Shown here in pieces: positions 1 through 11,619 of a stretch of 11,619 nucleotides of DNA (its first letter is position 1; every line of letters starts with the position of its first letter). This stretch comes from Lachnospiraceae bacterium (GTDB taxonomy: Bacteria > Bacillota > Clostridia > Lachnospirales > Lachnospiraceae), in NCBI GenBank assembly GCA_021199395.1, contig JAJQIE010000218.1, positions 1 through 11,619 of the forward strand, written 5' to 3'. The notes beneath the pieces were generated by a model, which was not told the origin of the DNA, did not search any database, and saw only the letters and a program-made list of their open reading frames with translations. A program made the position numbers and the translations under genes.

Positions 1-820
1 CTTCTGACTCCTGCGTCATTTCCCGCACAAACCCGGTAATACCCTCCGGCTCATAAAAAAGAATATCCTCTGCCGCCTCAGGTTCGCCCTTCGCGCAGCG
101 AACTTCCATGGGCGAACCGTCCTGCAGCCGAGCGCAGCGAGTGGACGTTTCCATTCCATCGCGGACGGCAGCATCCACACGTCTGTCTACAAAATGGATT
201 TTCAGCTCCGGATTCAGATAAGCGGTCTGATGCAGACGGCTTTTCAGCTCTGTAGCGGAGAACCAGGTTTTTTCAAAAATCTCCGGATCCGGCAGAAACT
301 GAATCCGCGTACCCGTCTCCTTTGTCTTTCCGATCACCGGCAGCAGGCCATTTTCCAGTTCAATGACAGGGATGCCCCGCTCATATCGATCGTGATGAAT
401 TTTTCCTCCGCGCATCACCTGTACATCGAGCCATGTCGATAATGCGTTGACGACAGAGGAGCCAACACCGTGAAGCCCGCCGCTGGTCTTATAAGCCGAA
501 CCGTCGAATTTTCCGCCCGCATGCAGCGTCGTAAAGACAAGACGCTCCGCCGACATTCCCTTTTCGTGCATACCGACCGGAATCCCGCGTCCGTTGTCCT
601 GCACGGTCGCAGAACCGTCCTTCTCCAGATAAACCTCAATCTGGCTGCAATACCCCGCAAGATGCTCATCTACAGAATTGTCTACGATCTCATAGATCAG
701 ATGATTGAGTCCCTTGCGCGATACGCTGCCGATATACATACCAGGGCGCTTGCGCACCGCTTCCAGTCCCTCCAGGACGGATATGCTGCTCGCGTCATAG
801 GTGTCATTGGTCTTCGCCAT
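1..820 (-). CDS. DNA gyrase / topoisomerase IV subunit B (GyrB/ParE family), 3' part cut by window edge
   Basis: This is the ATPase subunit of a type IIA DNA topoisomerase, which uses ATP to drive strand passage together with a GyrA/ParC partner. The 273 visible residues start at ATG 820, with an AAAGGAAG ribosome binding site about 11 bases upstream. GHKL ATPase motifs are present: EIVDNSVDE (44-52), DNGRGIP (75-81), and [14 protein letters not shown] (115-128), followed by the [11 protein letters not shown] segment (170-182). Residues 223-247 are an extra 25-residue insertion coded by a 75-bp repeat (positions 79-153). It sits between the FVDRR strand and the [11 protein letters not shown] motif, where ordinary GyrB has a short loop at the start of the transducer domain. 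The gene starts 25 bases after the acyltransferase-like gene and is probably in the same operon as topB. The [18 protein letters not shown] stretch recalls the second, ParE-like B subunit of Lachnospiraceae, but I cannot decide between gyrB and parE from this fragment. Confidence 0.93.
79..153 (-). repeat. 75-bp palindromic in-frame repeat, copy inside gyrB/parE
   Basis: This 75-bp unit matches the tandem units at 11455-11604 without gaps; it has 67 of 75 identical bases compared with 11455-11529. It codes for residues 223-247 of the GyrB/ParE protein (pattern METxxRxARxQDGSxMEV followed by RCAKxEP). The outer stem is GGTTCGCCC (81-89) with GGGCGAACC (110-118). An inner hairpin TTCGC-gca-GCGAA (90-102) lies inside it. 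All six reading frames are open. Whether it is mobile is inference; its presence in an unrelated gene in the same frame is seen directly. Confidence 0.9.
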
Positions 821-845
821 TTTTGTATTGCTTCCTTTCTGCTTA

Positions 846-1511
846 TCAGTATTTCTCAACCACTTCACCGCGCTTTTTATAGACAGAGTTCGCCGGTACG
901 ACCTCCCGCACAGACGAGAGCGGATAGATATTCGAGCGCGGTCCGATGACTGTACCCGGATTCAGAACAGAACCGCATCCCACTTCCACTTCATCCCCAA
1001 GCATCGCGCCGAATTTTTTCAGTCCGGTTTCCATGCGCTGTGTGCCGTCCTTTACTACAACCGGCTTTTTGTCGGACTTTACGTTTGACGTAATAGAGCC
1101 TGCTCCCATATGCGCTTTATAGCCAAGAATCGAATCGCCGACATAATTGTAATGCGGCACCTGCACTTTATTAAAAAGTATTACATTTTTCAGCTCCGTC
1201 GAATTTCCCACAACAGCGCCCTCGCCGACAATCGCATTGCCGCGGATAAACGCGCAGTGGCGAATCTCCGCATTTTTCCCAATAATCGCCGGGCCGTGGA
1301 TAAAGGCGGTCGGCGCTACGGTCGCGCTTCTCGCGATCCAGACGTCCGCGCCGCGTTTTTCATATTCCTCCTCCGATAATGTATTGCCGAGCTCAATAAT
1401 AAACGCGCTGATCTTTGGCAGCACCTCCCAGGGATATTCCGCGCCCTCGAACAGATTCTTCGCAATCGTTTCATCCAGATTATAGAGATTCTTTATTTTA
1501 CAGGTTTCCAT
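846..1511 (-). CDS. Left-handed beta-helix (hexapeptide repeat) acyltransferase-like protein, related to GlmU C-terminal domain
   Basis: This 221-residue protein starts at ATG 1511 behind a perfect AGGAGG (1520-1525, 8-base spacing). Residues 1-56 form a helical N-terminal part, and residues 57-135 and 168-195 carry imperfect hexapeptide repeats with I/V/L at the turn positions (for example [20 protein letters not shown] and [20 protein letters not shown]). These build a left-handed beta-helix. Clostridial proteins of this kind are often labelled UDP-N-acetylglucosamine pyrophosphorylase, but the nucleotidyltransferase domain and its N-terminal GXGTRM-type motif are absent, so that reaction is not supported. 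An acyl- or acetyltransferase on a sugar nucleotide is plausible, and the substrate is unknown. The gene lies 19 bases after topB and 25 bases before gyrB/parE, so co-transcription is likely. Confidence 0.8.
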
Positions 1512-1530
1512 AATTCATTCCTCCTGATTG

Positions 1531-3711
1531 TCAAAATTTATGCGCCTTCCCTTTTTTATAATATTTTGCAGCCTCATCAAACAGCGGACGCATCGAAAGC
1601 GAATTATTAATCGAAAGAACCGCGTCTGTGCGCGACCGGATAAAATCCTCCAGCTTCCCCATATATTCATCGCTCGTGATCGTTCCCTCCGCCACATAGG
1701 TAAGGCCTTTTTCCCAGCTGGCGGTGAGCTCCGGGTTCAACAGGGAGCGAATGGAATAATACACCACATCGTGAATCATCTCTCCCTGGAGAGTCGGCGT
1801 CAGGATCTGCGTCTTTTTATTCAGTGCAATATAGTCATTGGAAACCAGCTTTTTCAGGATTTCGGCGCGTGTAGCGCTCGTGCCGATCCCGCTTCCCTTT
1901 ATCTGGGCGCGCAGCTCCTCATCCTCAATCAGCTGGCCGGCGTTTTCCATTGCCAGAATCATCGAACCGGAATTATAGCGTTTGGGCGGTGAAGTCTCGC
2001 CCTCCCGGATTCCAAGGGAACGGACGGACAGCTGCATTCCCCTGCGCAGTCCCTTCAGAGCATCAAGCAGATCCGTGCCATATTCCGATTCCGTGTTTTC
2101 TGATATACCGCCATTTTTATTTTCATTTTCTGCCGCACTATATGAAGCGTCCTCGCTCTCGCCACCCGAAAGCAGAGCAGGGCGGTTTTGCTGCTCGGAT
2201 TTCTTTCTTCGGTCGTTTGGGTTGCCCGCCACTTTAAAGTAGCCCTCAGACAGCAGCACCTTAAAGGAATAGAAAAACCGCTCTTTTTCCATAACCGTCA
2301 CCATGCTGACCCGCTGAAATTCGGCAGCAGGATAAAAAATACTCAAAAATCTTCGCACAATAGCGGCGTACACGCCGTAGCCATGTCCCTTCAGAGAACC
2401 CAGAGCGCCTAAGCCCTGTCCGGTCGGAATAATCGCATAGTGATCGGTAATCTGCTTATCATTGACATATCTCGTCCGGGCGATTGTCTTATATGAGCCG
2501 CCGGAGAGGATTTCCTCCGCATATTCCGCGGCGGGAGGAAATTTTTTCAGACCAGAGATGTTTTTAGAAATTTCTTTTGCGACCGCTGTGGAAAGCACCC
2601 TGGCGTCCGTTCGCGGGTAGGTGACAAGCTTTTTCTCATATAATTCCTGAACAATCCTGAGCGTCTCATCCGGGCTGATTTTGAACATACGCGAGCATTC
2701 ATTCTGTAATTCAGCCAGATTGTAAAGCAGCGGCGGATTCTTTTTTTCTTTCTTTTTTTCAATAGAATCTATCCGCGCCGTCTCGCCGCCCGAAGCCGGA
2801 AGCATATTATCCGGCAGGGAAGCCTGTCCGGGAGCTGTCTTATGATTTTGCCCGATAAGCCCCGCGCTTAGCGGCATCAGTCTGAAAATCAGCGCTACGG
2901 CGTCCTTTTTATCGCGAAATCCATTCTCCTTATATAGCTTGGGCGAGAGATACAGGTCTGAGCCTTCCACCGCGCGAAATTCGCCCTCCAGCAAATGCCC
3001 CTGAAGGTCAATGCCCTGCACGACCCGGTAAAACGGGGTCTTTACGAACTGGCGGATTTCACGCTCACGCCGCACGACCATGCCCAGCACGCAGGTCATC
3101 ACGCGTCCAACCGATATGACCGCATATTTTTTCCCAAGATAATTTGAGATCGCATTGCCATATTTCAGGGTCAGGAGACGCGAGAAATTAATTCCCATCA
3201 GGTAGTCTTCCTTCGCGCGAAGATAGGCGGCGGAGGCCAGATTGTCATACTCCGAAAGATCCTTCGCATCCTCGATCCCCCTGTGGATTTCCTCCTCAGT
3301 CTGGGAATCAATCCAGACGCGTAAGCGCTTCTTGCCATGTACCTTCGCTTCCTGTTCAACCAGCCGATAGATATATTCTCCTTCCCGTCCGGAATCCGTG
3401 CATACATAAATCGTATCCGTATCCCTGCGGTTCAGAAGGCCGCTTACAACTGTAAACTGTTTTTTCACAGAGGGAATTACTTCGTACAAAAACTGCTCCG
3501 GAAGAAACGGCAGGGTATCCAGGCTCCACTTCTTATATTTGGGGTCATATACCTCCGGATAGCTCATAGTCACAAGGTGTCCGACGCACCAGGTCACCAC
3601 ATAGGAATCCGATTCCAGATAGCCGTCGCCGCGTCTCATGTTTTCTTTTAATGCCTTTGCAAATTCCTGCGCCACGCTCGGTTTCTCCGCAATGAACAGT
3701 GATTTTGCCAT
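1531..3711 (-). CDS. topB: DNA topoisomerase III (type IA)
   Basis: This type IA topoisomerase relaxes and decatenates DNA through a covalent 5'-phosphotyrosine. The 726-residue protein starts at ATG 3711 behind GAGGAGGG (3717-3724). The Toprim domain shows IAEKPSVA (7-14) and the acidic DSGREGE (106-112). The catalytic tyrosine is Y365 in LVTYPRTDARVL, and ITDHYAIIPT (421-430) and GSGIGTSATRAEIL (607-620) are conserved core motifs. SVGRVMTCVL (200-209) replaces the usual SVGRVQTPTL. Two segments look inserted compared with standard topoisomerase III: about 283-323 (Lys/Glu-rich at the end) and 496-546 (Asn/Ser/Glu-rich, probably disordered). There is no C-terminal zinc-finger cluster. The gene leads a probable three-gene operon from the promoter at 3777-3805. 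Confidence 0.95.
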   Translation of the reverse strand: MAKSLFIAEKPSVAQEFAKALKENMRRGDGYLESDSYVVTWCVGHLVTMSYPEVYDPKYKKWSLDTLPFLPEQFLYEVIPSVKKQFTVVSGLLNRRDTDTIYVCTDSGREGEYIYRLVEQEAKVHGKKRLRVWIDSQTEEEIHRGIEDAKDLSEYDNLASAAYLRAKEDYLMGINFSRLLTLKYGNAISNYLGKKYAVISVGRVMTCVLGMVVRREREIRQFVKTPFYRVVQGIDLQGHLLEGEFRAVEGSDLYLSPKLYKENGFRDKKDAVALIFRLMPLSAGLIGQNHKTAPGQASLPDNMLPASGGETARIDSIEKKKEKKNPPLLYNLAELQNECSRMFKISPDETLRIVQELYEKKLVTYPRTDARVLSTAVAKEISKNISGLKKFPPAAEYAEEILSGGSYKTIARTRYVNDKQITDHYAIIPTGQGLGALGSLKGHGYGVYAAIVRRFLSIFYPAAEFQRVSMVTVMEKERFFYSFKVLLSEGYFKVAGNPNDRRKKSEQQNRPALLSGGESEDASYSAAENENKNGGISENTESEYGTDLLDALKGLRRGMQLSVRSLGIREGETSPPKRYNSGSMILAMENAGQLIEDEELRAQIKGSGIGTSATRAEILKKLVSNDYIALNKKTQILTPTLQGEMIHDVVYYSIRSLLNPELTASWEKGLTYVAEGTITSDEYMGKLEDFIRSRTDAVLSINNSLSMRPLFDEAAKYYKKGKAHKF

Positions 3712-3741
3712 TCATACCCTCCTCTTTATAATTGCAGCATA

Positions 3742-3782
3742 TATAATGAAGCCGCCGCAAAATACACGACAGCTTCATTATA
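3742..3782. repeat. 11-bp inverted repeat overlapping the topB promoter
   Basis: TATAATGAAGC (3742-3752) and GCTTCATTATA (3772-3782) are perfect inverted copies separated by 19 bases. The right arm contains the -10 box of the topB promoter on the minus strand, and the left arm lies in the leader. It could be a protein-binding operator. It is followed by a T-rich run on the plus strand, but no plus-strand gene precedes it, so a plus-strand terminator is less likely. Confidence 0.6.
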
Positions 3783-3805
3783 GTTTTTTCTTTTCTTTTT
3801 TGCAA
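3777..3805 (-). promoter_or_regulatory. Sigma-A type promoter of topB operon
   Basis: On the minus strand, TTGCAA (3800-3805) is separated by exactly 17 bases, nearly all A/G, from a perfect TATAAT (3777-3782). The predicted start of transcription is near 3770, about 60 bases before the topB start codon. Confidence 0.8.
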
Positions 3806-3815
3806 TCGTATTTTT

Positions 3816-3844
3816 CACCCCGGCCAAACTGTTTGGCCTCGGTG
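3816..3844 (-). other. Hairpin between rnpB 3' end and topB promoter
   Basis: GGCCAAAC (3822-3829), one base, then GTTTGGCC (3831-3838) form a perfect 8-bp stem. It is extended by CACC (3816-3819) with GGTG (3841-3844) beyond a two-by-two mismatch. It lies 28 bases after the mature rnpB 3' end and could end or stabilise that transcript, but there is no T-run after it on the minus strand, so it is not a standard intrinsic terminator. A protein-binding palindrome upstream of topB is the alternative. Confidence 0.5.
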
Positions 3845-3871
3845 TAACCTGCAACAATTTATTTCAAATGT

Positions 3872-4404
3872 AAGTGGGACGATAAGCCGGGTTATGTCGT
3901 GAGTGATCATCTATCTGGACCTGTCGTTGCCGACAGGCTCTAGCGACCTACCTGAAGCTGGCGGGCAGCCTGATGGTTCTCTTTCGCTTCTATGCGGTCT
4001 TGCTTCGGATGGGGTTTACATATGCCGCTTCTGTTACCAGATCTGTCACGCTCCCGAAGAGCACTGACATAAAACACGCCTTCACGTGTTCTTTAAGCGC
4101 GGTAGTCTCTTACACTGCCCTTCCACCCTTACCGTTCCAAAAGCTGCTTCGCCACTCATGCGTATTCCGCATCGAGTCTGCAAAGCGTTCTCCCGGACCG
4201 GCGGTACATTTCTGTTGCACTATCCCTGGAGTCGCCTCCGCCGGACGTTATCCGGCATCCCTGCCCTGTGAAGCCCGGACTTTCCTCGACTGGTATCTTT
4301 CGATGGGTTCACCCTTCCCGCAACGACGGGACATTTCTATCGATACGCCCTCCACGCAGCGAGCTATACAGCGAACAGGCCAGCCGCGACCACTTGTCCC
4401 GCTT
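3872..4404 (-). ncRNA. rnpB: RNase P RNA, class A
   Basis: This is the catalytic RNA of RNase P, which removes 5' leaders from pre-tRNA. On the minus strand the conserved regions appear in order: GAGGAAAGTCCGGGC (4273-4287), AGTGCAACAGAAA (4209-4221), GGTAAGGGTGGAAGGGCAG (4115-4133) and ACCCGGCTTATCG near 3880-3894. The ends pair as helix P1: AAGCGGGAC (4396-4404) with GTCCCACTT (3872-3880), with one mismatch. Ends were set by P1 and by the promoter, so they are uncertain by a few bases. At about 533 nt it is far longer than E. coli rnpB (377 nt). The extra length lies 5' of the first conserved block (P3 region), in P12, and after the third conserved block. The L15 loop (about 3961-3985) reads CAGGCTGCC, so the usual GGU that pairs with the tRNA CCA end is not obvious. 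Confidence 0.95.
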
Positions 4405-4413
4405 ACGCGGCGT

Positions 4414-4442
4414 ATTTTATCACAAACCCGCTTTTTTGTAAA
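4414..4442 (-). promoter_or_regulatory. Promoter of rnpB
   Basis: On the minus strand, TTTACA (4437-4442) and TAAAAT (4414-4419) are 17 bases apart. The predicted start near 4407 falls within a few bases of the P1 helix of rnpB, which fixes the 5' end of the RNA. Confidence 0.8.
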
Positions 4443-4456
4443 TCATTTAATTTCCC

Positions 4457-4488
4457 AAAAAGGCGGCAGAGATGGATCCCCGCCGCCT
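4457..4488 (-). terminator. Intrinsic terminator of the sugar-uptake/GH3 operon
   Basis: On the minus strand, AGGCGGC (4482-4488) and GCCGCCT (4461-4467) form a 7-bp GC-rich stem with a 14-base loop, followed by a T-run (complement of 4457-4461). It lies 29 bases after the GH3 stop codon and just upstream of the rnpB promoter. Confidence 0.85.
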
Positions 4489-4517
4489 GATCGCGTTTTT
4501 TCTGATTACTTCCAGAT

Positions 4518-6923
4518 TCAGGGAATGATTTCGCCCTCCGTGTAGAATCCCCTTGTCCTCTGATCCGTTTCTTTGGTTTCCCTGACATAAAATTCCCCGG
4601 TCAGGCGAATATCCTGACTGGAAGCTCCTACCAGAACACAGTATTTCCCTTTCTCAACCACCCATTTCATATTCTCATCAAGGAATGACGCCTGAGATGC
4701 TTTCATACAAAAGCGAATTGTTTTTCTCTCGCCTTTGCGCAAAGGCACGCGGCAAAAGCCCGCAAGCTCACGCTCCGGTCTTACCATGCTTGCCGTCTCA
4801 TCGCTGAGATAAAACTGAACCACCTCATCGCCGTCATATTCACCTGTGTTCTCCACATCGACCGTAAAAGCGATCTCGTCCTCACTCCCGATCTCCGTGT
4901 TCTTGATCTGAAGGTTCGAATAAGTAAATTCCGTATAGGATAATCCATGCCCAAAATAGTAGAGCGGGAATGCGGTGTCATTTATGTATCCGTTTGGGTT
5001 CCGTATCATTCCAGTATGTCCAGCGCCCACGTATCCGCTGCCACGCGGAAGGGAATAGTAAACAGGAAGCTGCCCCACGTTTCTGGCCGCGGTCACAGGC
5101 AGACGCCCGGACGGGCTGTACGCACCGAAGAGCAGCTCGCAAAGAGCCTTCCCGCCCTGCTCTCCGGGCTGCCAGACCTCAAGTATCGCGTCGAAGTGTG
5201 ACGCTACATACTCATTTGAGAGCGGACGCCCGTCAAAATGCAGTACAACTGTCTTTTTCCCAAGCGCATAGATTTTTCTCGCAAATTCCTCCTGTCTCCC
5301 CGGAAGTCCGATATTGGTTGAATCAACACCCTCCCCGACAGTAGAGGTTACGCCCCAGCCGTTTTTGCCGCCAAGGGTAAGCAATACAAGATCCGCTTCA
5401 GCGGCACAGTCCAGAGCCGTCTCCATTTCACCCAGATCGCTTCCGGCACAATTGATCCCCCTTGCGCAGCGAACCTGCGCATCAGGAAGATATTCCTTCA
5501 CAGACTGGTACAGGCTCTTTGTATCGGGAAATTCCCTGCGGATCCTTTTCTCGATCCTCGGAGAACAGTCCCGCACCCTGCCCGGACAGCTTTGCTCGAT
5601 ATCATACACGATCAGTCCAGGCTCTTCAAAAATCTGACCGTCTTCTTCTCTGGTCATTGTCATATCAATAACCGCGGGATAGGAAAATGTTCCAAAATAG
5701 CTTCTGACACTGTCCGCGTGAGGTCCAACGACAGCAATACGAAGACCTTTTTCACGCTTCAGCGGCAATGTATGATTCTGATTTTTCAGCAGAATCACGC
5801 TTTCCCTGGCGAGCTTCTCATTGATAAGCTTTACCTCCGGAGCCTCGACAGACGCACGGAAAAGCTCCCTGTCCGGATACGGATTTTCAAACAGCCCCAG
5901 ACGGAATTTCAGTGTCAGAACCCTTTTTACCGCGGCATCTACCGCTTCCATCGTAAGCCGTCCTTCCTCGATTTCCCTTTTCAGCTCATAGGTATAGCCC
6001 TTGGGACGCGGGTATTCTACATCAAGTCCGGCCTTCAGTGCACGGACGCCTGCCTCCGTGAAGGTGTCCGCTACATGAAACGGATCAACCAGCCGGTCCA
6101 CCGCAATATAGTCAGACACAGCAATTCCTTCAAAGCCGAGCTCGCCCCTCAGTATTGTTGTCAGAAGCTTATGGGACCCGGAAACCGGCTCTCCGTTCAG
6201 AGAACAGTAGGAGGTCATCACGCCCGGAAGCCCACATTCTGTGATTGCCGCCTGAAAAGGCTTACAGTGTGTTTCCAGCAGGCTTCTCTCAGGGATCGGA
6301 TTACCGCCCATGTTCAGGCCGCCATCCGTAACACCATGCCCGACAAAGTGTTTTGCCGTAGCCGCTACGCCCTGGCTCAGGTCGTCAGACTGCAGCCCCG
6401 CTATAAATGAGCATCCGATAGCCGATGCGAGCGCGGGATCCTCGCCGTAGGTTTCCGTCACTCTCCCCCACCGCGGATCACGGGAAATATCCAGCACCGG
6501 TGAGAGCGCCTGGCGGAATCCGACAGCAAACATCTGCTGCCGGATCACGTCTCCCATTTCCCGTACAAGAGTATCATCAAAAGTTGATGCCTGACCGATC
6601 GCGCTCGGAAATACAGTCGCACCTGTGAACTGTCCTCCCGCTGACGCTTCGCAATGAATCAGCGCCGGTATACCAAGCTCCGTCTCTTCTGTCAAAAACT
6701 TCTGCAGCCGGTATACATATTCCATAATCGGTTCTACACTGTCTGCCACAGTGAAAGCGCCCACATGTCCGATCCCCTGCGGCACATATTCCTTAAAATC
6801 AGGAATATCCTCTGAAATCGTCACCAGACAGGTGATCTGGTCAATCTTTTGTTCAAAGCTCATGCGGGACATTAAATCTTCAACGCGCTCCTCAATCGGC
6901 CGCGATGCATCTTTATATATCAT
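4518..6923 (-). CDS. Glycoside hydrolase family 3 beta-glycosidase (beta-glucosidase/beta-xylosidase type)
   Basis: This 801-residue GH3 enzyme releases a terminal beta-linked sugar with a retaining mechanism. The start is ATG 6923, with AAGGGG (6931-6936) 7 bases upstream; the frame stays open 25 codons further but without a ribosome binding site. The N-terminal TIM-barrel domain has LSPVLDISRDPRWGRVTE (140-157), the substrate-binding KHFVGHG (191-197) and the nucleophile D271 in GIAVSDYIAV. The C-terminal part has the alpha/beta sandwich (LARESVILLKN) and a fibronectin-III-like domain (VVQFYLSDE onward). No signal peptide is visible, so it should act in the cytoplasm on sugar imported by the adjacent ABC system. 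It is the last gene of the operon, 49 bases after the binding-protein gene. Sequence alone does not settle glucose versus xylose specificity. Confidence 0.93.
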   Translation of the reverse strand: MIYKDASRPIEERVEDLMSRMSFEQKIDQITCLVTISEDIPDFKEYVPQGIGHVGAFTVADSVEPIMEYVYRLQKFLTEETELGIPALIHCEASAGGQFTGATVFPSAIGQASTFDDTLVREMGDVIRQQMFAVGFRQALSPVLDISRDPRWGRVTETYGEDPALASAIGCSFIAGLQSDDLSQGVAATAKHFVGHGVTDGGLNMGGNPIPERSLLETHCKPFQAAITECGLPGVMTSYCSLNGEPVSGSHKLLTTILRGELGFEGIAVSDYIAVDRLVDPFHVADTFTEAGVRALKAGLDVEYPRPKGYTYELKREIEEGRLTMEAVDAAVKRVLTLKFRLGLFENPYPDRELFRASVEAPEVKLINEKLARESVILLKNQNHTLPLKREKGLRIAVVGPHADSVRSYFGTFSYPAVIDMTMTREEDGQIFEEPGLIVYDIEQSCPGRVRDCSPRIEKRIRREFPDTKSLYQSVKEYLPDAQVRCARGINCAGSDLGEMETALDCAAEADLVLLTLGGKNGWGVTSTVGEGVDSTNIGLPGRQEEFARKIYALGKKTVVLHFDGRPLSNEYVASHFDAILEVWQPGEQGGKALCELLFGAYSPSGRLPVTAARNVGQLPVYYSLPRGSGYVGAGHTGMIRNPNGYINDTAFPLYYFGHGLSYTEFTYSNLQIKNTEIGSEDEIAFTVDVENTGEYDGDEVVQFYLSDETASMVRPERELAGFCRVPLRKGERKTIRFCMKASQASFLDENMKWVVEKGKYCVLVGASSQDIRLTGEFYVRETKETDQRTRGFYTEGEIIP

Positions 6924-6972
6924 AGCGCTGCCCCTTTTTACAATTTTGATGTACTGCTTCTGTCTCTTTGAA

Positions 6973-7932
6973 TTACTCTGTCTCAGCCTCTGCGTCATCG
7001 CTCAGATAGTCAGCGACATTATCAATTGTCACTTCCTCAAACGGAACCTTTACATCTTCAATATCCGCCGGATCCTCTCCATCGCGGATGCTGGCAAATA
7101 CTTCCGCCCCGGCCTGTGCCTGCGCTCTCGCGTTCTGGAGAACTGTCATGCTCATTTCGCCGGCCTGTACAGATTCAAGAGCCGCATCGCTTCCGTCAAT
7201 TCCAATCACAATCACGCCGTCCAGTCGATCCGCGGACTTCAGGGCTTCGATTACGCCAAGAGCAGCATCATCATTCTGGCACACAATCGCGTCAAACGAT
7301 TCAAAAGCCTGCATGCAGTCTTCCGCTGTGCTCATTCCCAGATCCTTCTGATTCTCTACATTGTACTCCGCAAGGATTTCAATATCATCCCTCTCTGCAA
7401 GCGTATCCTCAAGTCCTGCCTTGCGGTCAATATACTGCTGATCGTTTGGCGTCCCCGTGAAATACAGGATCTGCGCGTTCTCCGGCAGAGTTTCAAGCAG
7501 ATACTCGCCCTGCACAACGCCCGCGTCGTAGTTTTCGGAGCCGATGTAAATATACTTTTCATAATCGTCCCCGCCTGTTACGGACGTCAGGAATGTCACA
7601 TAAGGCAAATCCGCGGCAATCGCAGCCTCAAGAGCCGGAACGGAACCATCCAGATCATTACTGATCGCTGAGACAACGTCTGCACCCTGAACAATAAAGT
7701 CATCGATCTGTCCATTCTGTACGTTGGTGTCTCCTCCGGCATCTGTCACCACGATCGACATCCCAAGCGCTTCCGTCTCTTCCTTGAGATATTTGCGGAA
7801 TGTCGCGCAATAGTCATAGGTATCACTGTTGTTTGCGAACCCTACCAGAAAATCCTCTTCCGCAAGTACCGGACCTGACATTGAAAATGCCACTGCTCCT
7901 GCCATCATTATCGCTGTTACCTGTTTCTTCAT
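6973..7932 (-). CDS. Sugar ABC transporter substrate-binding protein (RbsB-like, Peripla_BP_4 family)
   Basis: This 319-residue binding protein captures the substrate outside the cell and delivers it to the neighbouring ribose-type permease. The start is ATG 7932, with AAGGAGG (7941-7947) 8 bases upstream; an in-frame ATG 18 bases further upstream lacks such spacing. Residues 1-24 form a signal peptide (MKKQ, hydrophobic core, SGPVLA) with probable cleavage after A24. No lipobox cysteine follows, which is unusual for a Gram-positive binding protein. Family motifs include FLVGFANNSDTYDYC near the mature N-terminus, DDFIVQGADVVSAISNDLDG, and the CQNDDAALGVIEALKSA and VIGIDGSDAAL segments typical of RbsB-like domains. 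The C-terminus is very acidic (SDDAEAETE). The ligand is probably a mono- or small oligosaccharide; the adjacent GH3 gene suggests a beta-glycoside or its product. Confidence 0.9.
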   Translation of the reverse strand: MKKQVTAIMMAGAVAFSMSGPVLAEEDFLVGFANNSDTYDYCATFRKYLKEETEALGMSIVVTDAGGDTNVQNGQIDDFIVQGADVVSAISNDLDGSVPALEAAIAADLPYVTFLTSVTGGDDYEKYIYIGSENYDAGVVQGEYLLETLPENAQILYFTGTPNDQQYIDRKAGLEDTLAERDDIEILAEYNVENQKDLGMSTAEDCMQAFESFDAIVCQNDDAALGVIEALKSADRLDGVIVIGIDGSDAALESVQAGEMSMTVLQNARAQAQAGAEVFASIRDGEDPADIEDVKVPFEEVTIDNVADYLSDDAEAETE

Positions 7933-7976
7933 GCTTCTTTCCTCCTTCATGATATTGGTTTTTATTTGCAGAGACC

Positions 7977-8000
7977 GCCGCAGGCGAATATCGCTCCGGC
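7977..8000 (-). other. Small hairpin between permease and binding-protein genes
   Basis: Within the 81-base gap, GCCG (7977-7980) pairs with CGGC (7997-8000) and GCGA (7984-7987) with TCGC (7991-7994). Such intercistronic stems can protect upstream or downstream mRNA and help a binding protein be made in excess, but the stem here is short and that role is only a guess. Confidence 0.35.
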
Positions 8001-8013
8001 AGCCCCGTACTGC

Positions 8014-8973
8014 TCACTGACTCTTTTTGTCTTCCTTTGTTTTCATGTCAATTGTCACCGCTCCTGCAATCAGCACGCCCTTCACAATTAGCTGATACTG
8101 TGTCGATACGTGGAGCAGGTTCAGAATATTATTGATCAGACCGACGATGATCGAACCGATCAGCGCGCCCGTAACGGTTCCGATCCCGCCAAGGAAGCTG
8201 GTCCCGCCGACAACTACCGCAGTGATCGCGTCAAATTCATAGCCGTCGCCAACGCTGGGCATACCGGCCATCAGTCTTGCCATCAGCACAACGCCGGCCA
8301 GCCCGACAAACGCTCCGCTCAGCGTGAATATTTTTCGTTTCTCATGGTTCACACGCACGCCGGAGGCGATTGCCGCTTTTTCATTTCCGCCAATCGCGTA
8401 GATATTGATACCCAGCTGTGTATATTTCATAATCACAGCTACGATCGCCACGGCCGCAAACATAATCACTACCGGAACCGGTATCGGGCCGATGCTGCCC
8501 TGTCCGAGAAAACGAATCTTTGTGACACCGCCGATTGATTTTCCATTTGTATACAGCTGAACAATTCCCTCTGCGACATTTGTCATTGCCAGCGTCGCTA
8601 TAAATGGCTGCAGTTTAAACTGCGTAACCATGAATCCATTGAGCCATCCCGCTGCCATTCCGATCAGGATCCCGACCACGATCGCAAGCGGAACGCTCCC
8701 CGTCGCCACCAGCACGCCCGCTGAAAAACACATGGACGTCGTGCAGACAAGTCCGGCGGAAAGATCAATCATACCGGATACGATCAGCATTGTCTCACCG
8801 CAGGCAATAATCGTCACAACGGATATCTGCTTGAGTATATTGAGCAGGTTCTGCGGCTTTAAAAAATTCTGATTGATCAGCGCAGAGGCGATGAACAGGA
8901 TTACCAGAATGATAATAATGCCGTATTTTCGATAAATCGTACTAAGCTTCATTTTCTGCTGAGTGTCTTTCAT
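8014..8973 (-). CDS. Ribose-type sugar ABC transporter permease (RbsC-like)
   Basis: This 319-residue membrane permease belongs to the BPD_transp_2 (CUT2) family and forms the sugar channel with the RbsA-like ATPase. The start is ATG 8973, with GGAGGTGG (8983-8990) 9 bases upstream; an in-frame start 7 codons earlier would lie over that ribosome binding site. After a short charged N-terminus, the protein has about eight to ten hydrophobic spans, beginning GIIIILVILFIASALI. Family motifs are NLLNILKQIS, ETMLIVSGMIDLSAG and the cytoplasmic VVGGTSFLGGIGTVTGALIG loop that contacts the ATPase. The start overlaps the end of the ATPase gene by 32 bases, which indicates translational coupling. Confidence 0.94.
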   Translation of the reverse strand: MKDTQQKMKLSTIYRKYGIIIILVILFIASALINQNFLKPQNLLNILKQISVVTIIACGETMLIVSGMIDLSAGLVCTTSMCFSAGVLVATGSVPLAIVVGILIGMAAGWLNGFMVTQFKLQPFIATLAMTNVAEGIVQLYTNGKSIGGVTKIRFLGQGSIGPIPVPVVIMFAAVAIVAVIMKYTQLGINIYAIGGNEKAAIASGVRVNHEKRKIFTLSGAFVGLAGVVLMARLMAGMPSVGDGYEFDAITAVVVGGTSFLGGIGTVTGALIGSIIVGLINNILNLLHVSTQYQLIVKGVLIAGAVTIDMKTKEDKKSQ

Positions 8974-10468
8974 AATTTCTGTCCACCTCCACAATCTTTT
9001 TCATGATCAGATCCTGTGTCGCTTCTTTGCTTGACAGCTCGCCAGCACACTTGCCGTTCGCGATCACCATAATACGGTGACTCATCGACAGCACTTCCGG
9101 CATATCTGACGAAATCAGTAAAATAGCCATTCCCTGAGCGGCCAGCTCCACGATCAATCGATAAATTTCCTGTCTGGCCCCGACGTCAATTCCTCTGGTC
9201 GGTTCATCAAGGATCAAAACGCTGACATCCCTGACAAGCCATTTCCCCAATACCAGCTTCTGCTGGTTCCCGCCGCTGAGCGTTCCGACCAGCGTGTCAA
9301 TTCCGGGTGCTTTGATATCCAGCCTCTCATAAATATCCGTCACGTTTTTCTGGATTTTCGGTCCATCCAGGATCCCATGTCTGGTAAACAGATCCTCATT
9401 CGCGAGAACTACATTCTCACGGATCGACCTCACGCCGACAAAACCATATTCCGCCCGATCCTCCGTCACCATTGCGATACCGTGGTTCACAGCGTCCCGG
9501 ATATCCCGGATCTGGCACGGCTCTCCATCTATCCGTATTTCTCCCGAATCATATCTGTCCATCCCAAATATGGCACGGGCGATTTCGCTTCTCCCGGCGC
9601 CCATCATGCCCGCAAAGCCCAGGATCTCTCCTGCGTGAAGGGTAAAGCTGATATTTTCGAAGACTCCTTCGCTGTTCAGATTCTTTACCTCAAGGACGGT
9701 GCGTCCTGCCGCGCTGGTAAGCGGCGGATAGATTTCCTGTACCTCCCGGCCCACCATCATCGATATCATCTGATCCTGGTCAATATCAGTCAGTCTGCCT
9801 GAGCCTATATACTGCCCGTCCCGCAGTACCGTATAGTCATCGCAGAGCTCAAATACCTCATCCAGCCGGTGAGAGATAAAGACAAAAGCAATTCCCTTTT
9901 CTTTCAGCTCGCGTATCTTGTCAAAGAGAATCGCCGTCTCCATCCCGGTCAGAGCGGAGGTGGGCTCGTCCATAATCAGAACCTTTCCATTCCTGGAAAC
10001 CGCCTTGAGTATCTCTATCATCTGCCTCTGCGCGACGCTGAGATCTCCCATTTTTGTGTCCTGGCCATAATCCAGTCCCATGAAGGAAAGCCAGTATGCG
10101 GAATCCTCCGCGCGCTTTTTCTTGTCCACAAATCCGTGTACCTTTGGCTCCCGCCCCAGATACAGATTCTCAGCAATCGTCAGCTCCGGGACAAAATTCA
10201 GCTCCTGAGAAACGATCGCAATACCGAGGTCAATCGCATCCTTTTCACTTTTCAGATGAACCTCCCTGCCCTGATAGATCACTTCTCCGTCGTAATTTTT
10301 ATATGTACCTGATAAAATCTTCATCAGGGTACTTTTGCCCGCGCCGTTCTCACCAAGAAGCGCGTGGATGCATCCGGCGCGGATATCCATATTCACACCG
10401 TCCAGCGCAACTACCCCCGGAAACTCCTTGCGAATATTTCTCAGCTCTACAACAACCTCGTTATTCAA
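8942..10468 (-). CDS. Ribose-type sugar ABC transporter ATP-binding protein, two fused nucleotide-binding domains (RbsA-like)
   Basis: This 508-residue ATPase powers CUT2-type sugar import. I start it at TTG 10468 because GGAGGTG (10474-10480) lies 5 bases upstream; the frame is open 28 codons further, but that stretch has no ribosome binding site and contains the downstream LacI-type operator. Domain 1 has Walker A GENGAGKST (39-47), signature LSVAQ (143-147), Walker B VLIMDEPTSAL (163-173) and H-loop SH (199-200). Domain 2 has a degenerate Walker A GMMGAGRS (287-294), an intact LSGGNQQ signature (397-403) and VLILDEPTRGID (417-428), with SSD in place of the H-loop. This asymmetry is normal for RbsA/MglA/XylG proteins. 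It is the first gene of the operon. Confidence 0.94.
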   Translation of the reverse strand: MNNEVVVELRNIRKEFPGVVALDGVNMDIRAGCIHALLGENGAGKSTLMKILSGTYKNYDGEVIYQGREVHLKSEKDAIDLGIAIVSQELNFVPELTIAENLYLGREPKVHGFVDKKKRAEDSAYWLSFMGLDYGQDTKMGDLSVAQRQMIEILKAVSRNGKVLIMDEPTSALTGMETAILFDKIRELKEKGIAFVFISHRLDEVFELCDDYTVLRDGQYIGSGRLTDIDQDQMISMMVGREVQEIYPPLTSAAGRTVLEVKNLNSEGVFENISFTLHAGEILGFAGMMGAGRSEIARAIFGMDRYDSGEIRIDGEPCQIRDIRDAVNHGIAMVTEDRAEYGFVGVRSIRENVVLANEDLFTRHGILDGPKIQKNVTDIYERLDIKAPGIDTLVGTLSGGNQQKLVLGKWLVRDVSVLILDEPTRGIDVGARQEIYRLIVELAAQGMAILLISSDMPEVLSMSHRIMVIANGKCAGELSSKEATQDLIMKKIVEVDRNYERHSAENEA

Positions 10469-10473
10469 TATTT

Positions 10474-10480
10474 CACCTCC
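10474..10480 (-). promoter_or_regulatory. Ribosome binding site that decides a TTG start
   Basis: GGAGGTG on the minus strand lies 5 bases before TTG 10468. No ATG or GTG of the same frame between here and the VVVELRNIRKEF family start has comparable spacing, so the rare TTG initiator is the best choice. Confidence 0.7.
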
Positions 10481-10534
10481 AGTCACCAGCTCCGCCAGAT
10501 ATTTGACAGGATCATTGCTTACCTGAGCGGAGAT

Positions 10535-10550
10535 GTTTAAACGTTTTATC
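10535..10550. promoter_or_regulatory. LacI-type operator O1, in the operon leader
   Basis: GTTTAAACGTTTTATC is identical to the copy at 10668-10683. It is an imperfect palindrome centred on CG, with 6 of 8 positions symmetrical, the hallmark of LacI-family sites. It lies about 40 to 55 bases downstream of the predicted transcription start. A catabolite (cre) site is an alternative reading, since cre sites are also CG-centred. Confidence 0.75.
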
Positions 10551-10595
10551 AACTATTTGCCACCAAAATTTTAATTTTCTCTTTTTTATATTGCT

Positions 10596-10624
10596 ATCAT
10601 AACAAACAAATTTCAAAATATCAA
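10596..10624 (-). promoter_or_regulatory. Promoter of the ABC transporter/GH3 operon
   Basis: On the minus strand, TTGATA (10619-10624) and TATGAT (10596-10601) are separated by 17 bases inside a very AT-rich stretch. The predicted start near 10589 gives a leader of about 120 bases. The promoter lies between the two identical operators. Confidence 0.75.
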
Positions 10625-10667
10625 CAATAATTTTACAATTTTCACAATTATTTTTTCGTCATTTTTT

Positions 10668-10683
10668 GTTTAAACGTTTTATC
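10668..10683. promoter_or_regulatory. LacI-type operator O2, upstream of the operon promoter
   Basis: This is the second identical copy of GTTTAAACGTTTTATC, in the same orientation and 133 bases from the first. It lies roughly 80 to 95 bases upstream of the predicted transcription start, a layout that suits repression by DNA looping between two sites. The LacI-family regulator encoded just upstream is the natural candidate ligand. Confidence 0.75.
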
Positions 10684-10781
10684 TAAATTCCGCTCGCGCC
10701 TGTGCACAGAACAAAATGGGCAAGCATTCGGGGCATCATATTTGCAGCGATGCAAGCAGCGGGGTATTAAACCCGTGAGCG
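10684..10781. other. Intergenic stretch between operator O2 and the regulator's terminator
   Basis: No gene is supported here. The segment has a short imperfect inverted repeat GGGT-attaa-ACCC (10762-10774) and TTGC-agcgat-GCAA (10742-10755), next to GC-rich words such as GCAGCGGGG. It may be a decayed intergenic repeat, but there is no second copy in this window to compare with. Confidence 0.3.
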
Positions 10782-10819
10782 AATAAAAACGCGAAGCAGA
10801 GTCCTCATTCTGCTTCGCG
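10782..10819 (-). terminator. Intrinsic terminator of the LacI-family regulator gene
   Basis: CGCGAAGCAGA (10790-10800) and TCTGCTTCGCG (10809-10819) form a perfect 11-bp stem with an 8-base loop. On the minus strand it is followed by TTTTTATT. The stop codon of the regulator (10805-10807) lies in the loop, so the upstream arm codes for the last residues of the protein. Confidence 0.9.
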
Positions 10820-11619
10820 TCCATATCTGGCCGTACTTCCCTTCACCAGTAAGGTTGGCCGATAATTGATGATCATTCTTTTCTTATCCTTCCCCTCGAA
10901 CCGTTCAACCGCCTCTATCATTTTTTTCCCGATGAGCTGTCCCATTTCTTCCGCCGGCACATTCAATGTGCTTAAAGGCACCTCAAGAGAGTCTCCAAAA
11001 GGAACATTGTCGCACCCGATCACTGACAGGTCGTCCGGAATCCGCACCCCATACATGCGCGCGCTCTGATAAATGCCAAAAGCCATCTCATCATTCATTG
11101 AAAAAATGGCGCTGACACGTTTGCCCAGCAGATATGACAGGGACTGTTTTCCACTTTTTAATGTATAGTTTCCTTTGTAGATAAGCTCCTCATCAAAAGG
11201 AATCCCTTCTTCCGCCAGGGCTTTGCTGTATCCATCCAGACGATCCTGCGTCACCTTAAAATCCTGCGTACCTGCGACGCATCCGATCCGGCGGTGTCCA
11301 AGCTCCAGAAGATGACGGGTTGCCAGATACGCGGCTTCATTATAATCAAAGACAACGTCTATACCGCCACAGGAAAACCCACTCTCATCCATTGTGATCA
11401 CTGGAATGCCCAGGCGATCCATGTATTCCCGGAGCTGTTGTCGTTCACACTCCACAGGTTCGTCCTTCGCGCAGCGAACCTCCATGGACGAACCGTCCTG
11501 CCGACGAGCGCTGCGAGGGGGCGTTTCCACAGGTTCGTCCTTCGCGTAGCGAACCTCCATGGACGAACCGTCCTGCCGACGAGCAATGCGAGGGGGCGTT
11601 TCCACAGGTTCGTCCTTCG
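10805..11619 (-). CDS. LacI-family transcriptional regulator, 5' part outside window, with in-frame tandem repeat insertion
   Basis: This is the effector-binding part of a LacI/GalR-family repressor; the helix-turn-helix N-terminus is beyond the window edge. Visible family motifs are LGIPVITMDES, HLLELGHRRIGCVAGT, the F.MNDEMAFGIYQSARMYG helix (the family's N-D element), and VRIPDDLSVIGCDNVPFGD. These define a periplasmic-binding-protein-like fold that binds a sugar. Before residues ECERQQLREYMDRLGIPV there are at least two full copies and part of a third of a 25-residue repeat (ARRQDGSSMEVRCAKDEP), read from the 75-bp DNA repeat at 11455-11619. This insertion falls in the N-terminal subdomain of the effector domain. 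The frame is open to the window edge. The gene ends in its own terminator and lies upstream of the ABC/GH3 operon, which it probably represses through the two operators. Confidence 0.9.
   Translation of the reverse strand, partial: KDEPVETPPRIARRQDGSSMEVRYAKDEPVETPPRSARRQDGSSMEVRCAKDEPVECERQQLREYMDRLGIPVITMDESGFSCGGIDVVFDYNEAAYLATRHLLELGHRRIGCVAGTQDFKVTQDRLDGYSKALAEEGIPFDEELIYKGNYTLKSGKQSLSYLLGKRVSAIFSMNDEMAFGIYQSARMYGVRIPDDLSVIGCDNVPFGDSLEVPLSTLNVPAEEMGQLIGKKMIEAVERFEGKDKKRMIINYRPTLLVKGSTARYGREAE
11455..11529 (-). repeat. 75-bp palindromic in-frame repeat, tandem unit 1 in the LacI-family gene
   Basis: The outer 9-bp stem is GGTTCGTCC (11457-11465) with GGACGAACC (11486-11494); the inner hairpin is TTCGC-gca-GCGAA (11466-11478). 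The unit codes for the 25 residues nearest the ordinary LacI sequence and has no stop codon in any of the six frames. It differs from unit 2 at 3 of 75 positions and from the gyrB/parE copy at 8 of 75, all without gaps. Confidence 0.92.
11530..11604 (-). repeat. 75-bp palindromic in-frame repeat, tandem unit 2 in the LacI-family gene
   Basis: The unit follows unit 1 directly. The stem is GGTTCGTCC (11532-11540) with GGACGAACC (11561-11569), unchanged. The three differences from unit 1 change C to Y and S to I in the protein and create one TAG in a non-coding plus frame; the coding frame stays open. Confidence 0.92.
11605..11619 (-). repeat. 75-bp repeat, start of tandem unit 3, cut by window edge
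   Basis: The last 15 bases repeat the first 15 of units 1 and 2 (CAGGTTCGTCCTTCG). The array therefore continues beyond the window and its total copy number is unknown. Confidence 0.85.

Follow-up and report, generated by a model that had tools for sequence, protein, structure and literature searches.

Why do two unrelated genes of one bacterial contig carry near copies of the same 75-nt unit? The contig, an 11,619-nt stretch of DNA from Lachnospiraceae bacterium (JAJQIE010000218.1; hereafter the window), comprises all of contig C276 in the draft genome G000 (2.28 Mb in 353 contigs, 71.6% complete). An initial annotation proposed that units at 79–153, 11455–11529 and 11530–11604 belong to a mobile, protein-tolerated palindromic element in a clostridial genome. 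Our analyses bear this out: copies are dispersed, four of six tested sites are exactly empty in relatives, insertions occur in frame, and the hairpins covary. The units are probably a non-autonomous mobile hairpin element – a relative of the Rfam GA-cis RNA – that invaded coding DNA and is translated there.

A hairpin unit in two genes

We reproduced the three 75-nt units by ungapped alignment; 79–153 and 11530–11604 match 11455–11529 at 67/75 (89%) and 72/75 (96%) positions, respectively. Their E-values range from 2e-33 to 1.3e-22 (the best being the query itself), and the resemblance is therefore not due to chance. The host genes are, as initially read, a topoisomerase B subunit (GyrB/ParE by family match) and a LacI-type regulator (by reading of the sequence). 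All units lie on the plus strand inside minus-strand genes, and we confirmed that they share one orientation and codon phase, xETPPR..ARRQDG.., in both genes. The features of the two loci are listed below, with scores from R1, a covariance model that has copies 79–153 and 11455–11529 among its 16 training copies.

79–153, plus strand: element copy 1, 75 nt, antisense in a GyrB/ParE-type gene; 83.5 bits with R1
81–118, plus strand: head hairpin of copy 1, with a 9-bp outer stem and a 5-bp inner hairpin (structure of alignment A2, described below; DNA fold)
123–147, plus strand: tail hairpin of copy 1; the consensus of the family shows G.G and tandem G.A internal loops here
77–172, minus strand: 32-residue insert of the topoisomerase by comparison with homologues, comprising copy 1 and about 21 further nt
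2–820, minus strand: host gene 1, GyrB/ParE-type DNA topoisomerase subunit B, incomplete at the contig end
11455–11529, plus strand: element copy 2, 75 nt, antisense in a LacI-type gene; 93.4 bits with R1
11457–11494, plus strand: head hairpin of copy 2 (fold and covariation structure)
11499–11523, plus strand: tail hairpin of copy 2 (covariation structure)
11530–11604, plus strand: element copy 3, 75 nt, in tandem with copy 2; 92.7 bits with R1
11605–11619, plus strand: first part of a further tandem copy, running into the contig end
10805–11617, minus strand: host gene 2, C-terminal part of a LacI-type regulator (assigned by reading the sequence), 5' end open

The topoisomerase segment is far from universal among homologues: 28 of 29 aligned sequences lack an insert at that place, the exception coming from genome G001. 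This orthologue (L178) has a different, unrelated-looking 24-residue insert in the same loop – perhaps a decayed copy or a sign of an insertion hot spot. In an AlphaFold model of the topoisomerase fragment (mean predicted local distance difference test score, pLDDT, of 72), insert residues 223–247 fall between two strands and have pLDDT values below 50, as do stretches 1–16 and 99–119. At the other locus the contig end falls inside the array, which is thus incomplete in the window. An N-terminal LacI-type fragment (contig C124, right end of L031; by reading) stops in the repeat that opens the C-terminal fragment of the window, and the two may be halves of one gene split by the array.

Each unit comprises a head (a 9-bp outer stem, a 5- or 6-bp inner hairpin and an internal loop of about 7 nt, usually AT-ended), then a short unpaired stretch and a tail, CTGCCGCCGAGCnnnGCGAGGGGGCGTTTCCA, whose hairpin contains a G.G mismatch and tandem mismatches of the G.A type. 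The sequence of the head stem changes from copy to copy yet its pairing is kept, and the tail is more constant. In A2, a set of 16 ungapped 75-nt copies hand-picked from 38, 94.3% of cells are paired and nine of the 22 pairs have changed on both sides; compensatory cells number 41, compared with 11.7 in shuffles and at most six in slid control structures. The 75-nt and 78-nt forms differ by one inner-stem base pair and one tail-loop base (net three), and some copies reach 114 or 117 nt through an extra 39-nt hairpin in the tail.

This GC-rich 39-nt module, GGTGGCATCC..GGGCGGGATATCC, is nested in the tail at L309:3691–3804, L042 (about 4520–4560) and L033 (about 2800), and leaves the 114/117-nt copies divisible by three. 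A second tail type, TGGCAGGTGCGC..GCGCGTGCC, occurs with variants on GA-cis-like heads, both in g1 – the genus to which the window's form belongs – and in other genera (G000:C42:2153, G032:C124:6114, L394, L396, L397, L399 and L401). L309:205–357 is a separate dispersed repeat of about 150 nt; most of the 12 relatives that we searched contain many matches to it. We dismissed integron attC sites, group II introns and tRNA-like ends by eye, with no search aimed at them.

The window's units are not isolated. One unit, used as query against the genome in a blastn-type search, had 59 matches at E ≤ 10. Scans with R1 scored up to 150 candidates per genome, so that their counts are lower bounds; they found at least 114 matches at E ≤ 0.1 and at least 93 at E ≤ 1e-3 in the window's genome, which disposes of the possibility that it holds no other copies. 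Congeners G013 and G032 have at least 42 and at least 89 matches at E ≤ 1e-3. Across 60 genomes (the window's included, with stricter filters), 19 have a match at this threshold: 19 of 36 genomes of the genus, 12 of them with at least 12 matches, compared with none of 24 from other families of the order. At E ≤ 1e-6, R1 hits among 150 genomes of the family were confined to that of the window and a second one with two matches. An exact tail pattern, sought in one genome for each of 84,980 species, identified 38 stretches, all in Lachnospiraceae or Clostridiales metagenome-assembly records. Viral contigs yielded no match to an exact tail pattern, and we set phage-borne spread aside on that result.

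The unit corresponds to a known Rfam family, GA-cis RNA (RF02987). Eight of the 11 matches listed in the window, L031 and L034 reach the gathering score of 34.7 bits (e.g., 36.9 bits at window 11528–11607); the best, at 59.3 bits, spans all 88 model positions with the same head and tail hairpins. With scoring limited to 10 candidates per genome across the family, GA-cis matches at E ≤ 1e-5 appeared in 29 of 397 genomes (26 of 334 genera). The original account of GA-cis reportedly presented it as a candidate cis-regulatory RNA of a Coprococcus and is said to place it upstream of genes. GA-cis/RF02987 appears in the Rfam 15 paper as a single table row; in the open-access literature we found no other paper naming GA-cis or RF02987 and no report of its mobility or presence within genes. 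The suggestion that the element might be undescribed thus fails for the hairpin, already an Rfam RNA, but stands – within that literature – for its movement and its life inside genes.

Copies inside reading frames

To describe where copies reside, we drew on the 224 matches at E ≤ 1e-3 in the window's genome, G013 and G032 and catalogued 221 (omitting C124:2–39, C107:1710 and C156:3123 of G000); sequences were in hand for 206, with 15 of the 89 G032 matches not included. A mechanical rule placed 134 of 179 arrays inside long open reading frames (ORFs); a further 16 are inside yet close to an edge, 14 overlap an ORF in part and 15 are outside. Under a strict rule demanding 60 open codons on both sides, applied to 187 units of at least 70 nt (17 dropped for short flanks), 100 of 170 g1 copies lie in frame inside an ORF (59%); random positions of these loci give 65%. 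When the requirement is raised to 100 codons per side, 76 g1 copies keep frame and 78 do not lie inside a single long ORF.

GA-cis copies of other genera are placed differently. From 115 places listed outside the window's genome we tested 72, in 14 genomes, and dropped four for short flanks; one of the remaining 68 is inside an ORF, compared with 56% of random positions. A further 15 places with full flanks, adding nine genomes, gave one of 15. The intragenic copies are L393 (G338:C8:3765–3846), in a 458-codon open frame, and G282:C3:42441; coding insertion may have begun more than once. In 43 of the 68, the start codon of a 100-codon ORF follows within 80 nt downstream on the same strand (mirror position, 4/68), at a distance of 11–22 nt in 31 of the 43. 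The corresponding g1 counts (47 downstream on the same strand and 83 upstream on the opposite strand, n = 166) are blurred by internal ATGs and were not used.

This placement just 5' of start codons, together with the Rfam family and the strong structural covariation, is what a cis-regulatory RNA would show, and the intragenic copies could likewise be kept for their structure, with the peptide a by-product. We consider this improbable. Among the 100 in-frame g1 copies, 70 are antisense to the element direction, and we therefore reject a simple cis-regulatory role in genes as the principal explanation: the strand modelled by Rfam is not in their messenger RNA, though its complement can fold too, so that the argument is not decisive. 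The intragenic location of g1 copies is, moreover, near random, and homologues exist that do without them.

Unit length and coding potential distinguish the g1 form further. For copies with both anchors, which alone the length test covers, lengths are divisible by three in 103 of 146 g1 units compared with 7 of 41 from other genera, and 17 of 19 g1 tandem spacings are multiples of three. Of the six frames, a mean of 4.94 are stop-free in 16 g1 units (5/16 have all six), compared with 3.17 in shuffles that keep pairing and composition; the mean is 4.57 for in-gene g1 copies, 3.83 for other g1 copies and 1.65 for other genera. Mitochondrial byp elements are inserts that ribosomes skip, and strong hairpins within coding DNA might suggest that the g1 inserts, too, are skipped or are removed from the RNA, never entering protein. 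We regard this as very unlikely, since such a process needs neither multiples of three nor stop-poor frames – g1 is enriched in both – and one antisense codon phase is favoured.

That favoured phase holds 56 of the 70 antisense copies, while the 30 sense copies are spread over the three phases (12, 9 and 9). For the 75-nt form, the favoured antisense frame reads ETPPRSARRQDGSSMEVRCAKDEPV, with net charge 0, a grand average of hydropathy (GRAVY) of −1.39 and no aromatics; the other two antisense frames have net charges of +7 and +3. Such patterns are consistent, at least partly, with selection for peptides that proteins tolerate rather than with codon-guided insertion.

The hosts include conserved enzymes. 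We scanned 30 hand-chosen host ORFs of 90 (20 from G000 and 10 from G013) against NCBIfam, and 22 matched a family at E ≤ 1e-20. They include MutS, RpoD, ValS, LeuS, IleS, MurF, Mfd, AddB and GyrB/ParE, and further CobB, ApgM, ArgJ, NAD synthase, LacZ and an S41 peptidase. As expected of partial or interrupted ORFs, several of these scores are under the curated cut-off.

Mobility and its possible means

For six G013 copies we sought the orthologous sites in twelve relatives. For four of them (78, 78, 75 and 114 nt), one or more relatives show an exact empty site, where the flank matches, once extended to the junction, meet with a gap of 0. Target duplications are thus absent at the four empty sites, unlike in a classical miniature inverted-repeat transposable element and as in elements derived from IS200/IS605. 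Some of the tested copies are also present in other relatives. Insertions are visible in proteins as well. A uridine-kinase-like protein on C124 has two inserts, the first absent from all 16 aligned orthologues and the second at a site of variable length among relatives, and an M3 oligoendopeptidase carries a 57-residue insert between the residues matching 404 and 405 of PDB 3ahm.

Draft metagenome assemblies, in which contigs often break or contain N runs in arrays, could in principle create such patterns, as could loss elsewhere of ancestral segments. We give this explanation almost no weight: the same element is present in several independently named assemblies, 12 of 36 genomes of the genus each have at least 12 matches, and relatives retain exact empty sites.

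Neighbouring copies resemble one another. Within 10 kb, 23 of 62 copy pairs have the same head, compared with a mean of 4.2 and a maximum of 11 over 1000 shuffles (11 of 206 copies without a clear outer stem omitted), and 19 of these 23 pairs are on the same strand. This local sharing of heads suggests local copying. The left flank is also non-random: among copies that start with AG and do not have another unit as left flank, a pyrimidine (mainly C) occupies position −3 in 13 of 16 sense, 28 of 33 antisense phase-1 and 58 of 64 unassigned copies, and in 5/6 and 2/3 of two small antisense groups. Together with a weaker preference for a preceding T, it resembles the element's own TTCCA end. Because of this flank likeness, the missing target duplications, the terminal hairpins and conservation at the level of shape, we suggest single-strand transposition of the IS200/IS605 kind.

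Such features would also be expected of a repeat derived from IS200/IS605 or from the repetitive extragenic palindromic (REP) family and its REP-associated tyrosine transposases (RAYTs), moved by a Y1 transposase since lost from some genomes. We regard this as possible but doubtful. In its favour are the four sites without target duplication, hairpins close to both element ends, the similarity between target flank and element end, and Y1 genes in 18 of 40 genomes of the genus, the window's own included. Against it, genomes G013, G015, G030 and G035 carry the element without Y1, the element model matches none of 12 Y1 loci, and no constant GTAG/CGTC tag is present, the bases of the head–tail spacer being variable. 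Plain Y1/RAYT mobilisation is thus unsupported by gene content or by the scan of the 12 loci.

We favour a mobile element of about 75/78 nt (114/117 nt with the extra hairpin) within the Rfam GA-cis group. In an ancestor of one g1 clade it would have lost its AGGAGG leader, acquired lengths mostly fixed at multiples of three and become depleted of stops; intragenic insertions would then be translated as mostly hydrophilic loop peptides without killing the gene. More tentatively, recognition may depend on the shape of the folded single strand, which would be cleaved 3' of its own TTCCA end and inserted 3' of a similar (Y)TTCNN site, often nearby, as in IS200/IS605-like transposition.

Several observations weigh against the translated mobile element. 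The extra segment of the topoisomerase is 32 residues (96 nt), not a clean 75 nt, so that the proposed addition of 25 residues per unit agrees with the unit length but not with this gene. Some units score below the GA-cis gathering threshold, e.g., window 77–156 (copy 79–153) at 26.1 bits. Two G013 copies, L308:1617 and L309:2615, gave no exact empty site in the twelve relatives. Thirteen g1 copies with long open flanks on one strand break the frame, compared with the 76 that keep it under the 100-codon rule; 43 of 146 anchored g1 lengths are not divisible by three; and g1 units have a G+C content of 0.64 compared with 0.52 elsewhere, which alone lowers stops. In other genera, 2 of 83 copies are inside ORFs. 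In the favoured antisense frame the 78-nt form has a net charge of +2, a GRAVY of −0.34 and no hydrophilicity advantage; peptide tolerance therefore explains the phase bias only in part. We infer translation of the inserts from open frames, and the assemblies are drafts, the named records being metagenome assemblies. Neither the Y1 content of 40 genomes of the genus nor the 12 Y1 loci pointed to a mobilising enzyme: Y1_Tnp (PF01797) is absent at E ≤ 1e-5 from the carriers G013, G015, G030 and G035 (90–100% complete), and the element model matched none of the 12 loci, even at E ≤ 10.

On a broader scale, we think it probable, with less confidence than for the element itself, that GA-cis is a family of mobile hairpins and not solely a regulatory RNA. 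In one Lachnospiraceae genus it would have passed from 5' untranslated regions (UTRs) into reading frames, gaining stop-poor frames and lengths that are multiples of three and seeding peptides into dozens of proteins, essential ones included, while it often spread nearby and its stem was re-invented. The hairpin was already known as an Rfam candidate RNA; new here are its mobility and its presence inside genes, which change the reading of an Rfam family. Rickettsia and Wolbachia are, to our knowledge, the main groups known to carry palindromic elements in frame. The same lifestyle in a Lachnospiraceae lineage, with non-coding relatives in other genera, opens the step from untranslated to coding DNA to comparison and provides a natural series of peptide-insertion experiments in conserved enzymes. 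It may also account for assembly breaks and odd extra protein segments in this group of bacteria.

Apart from the element, the window encodes a Bacterial RNase P class A RNA at 3867–4324 on the minus strand (226 bits with Rfam).

Comparison with known systems

The closest relative of the g1 element is GA-cis (RF02987) itself, which it matches over the full length of the covariance model, with the same head and tail hairpins. Copies from other genera nearly always lie outside ORFs (81/83), mostly carry an AGGA leader (66/72) and follow no length rule (7/41), whereas the g1 form often lies within genes, in most cases keeps the frame and has few stops.

Other repeats resemble it in part. REP elements are small hairpin repeats, at times within genes (PMC3733652); the g1 element differs from the REP/RAYT system in that a GTAG/CGTC tag is not constant in the 16 A2 copies (by eye) and several g1 carriers lack a Y1 transposase. 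Palindromic amphipathic repeat coding elements (PARCELs) are presented as 25-residue coding repeats with dyad symmetry that form tandem domains in ORFs without assigned function (PMC2996958); going by description only, the g1 element is distinguished by scattered insertions in housekeeping enzymes. In mitochondria of Nematomorpha, inverted repeats are retained in functional protein genes and both arms encode conserved parts of the protein (PMC6649704), whereas the g1 hairpin is an added insert absent from homologues.

The nearest parallel in lifestyle is with the palindromic elements of Rickettsia (RPEs) and Wolbachia (WPEs), described as palindromic repeats in frame within conserved protein genes (PMC3767692, PMC2229807). 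In-frame insertion into preexisting ORFs is common to RPEs and the g1 element. RPEs are 100–150 bp long and belong to Rickettsiales, whereas the named host records of the g1 element are Lachnospiraceae/Clostridiales. Unlike in RPEs, the stem of the g1 element varies among copies, neighbours often share a stem, and relatives in other genera are 5'-UTR elements. The g1 element works like RPEs and probably belongs to a different family.

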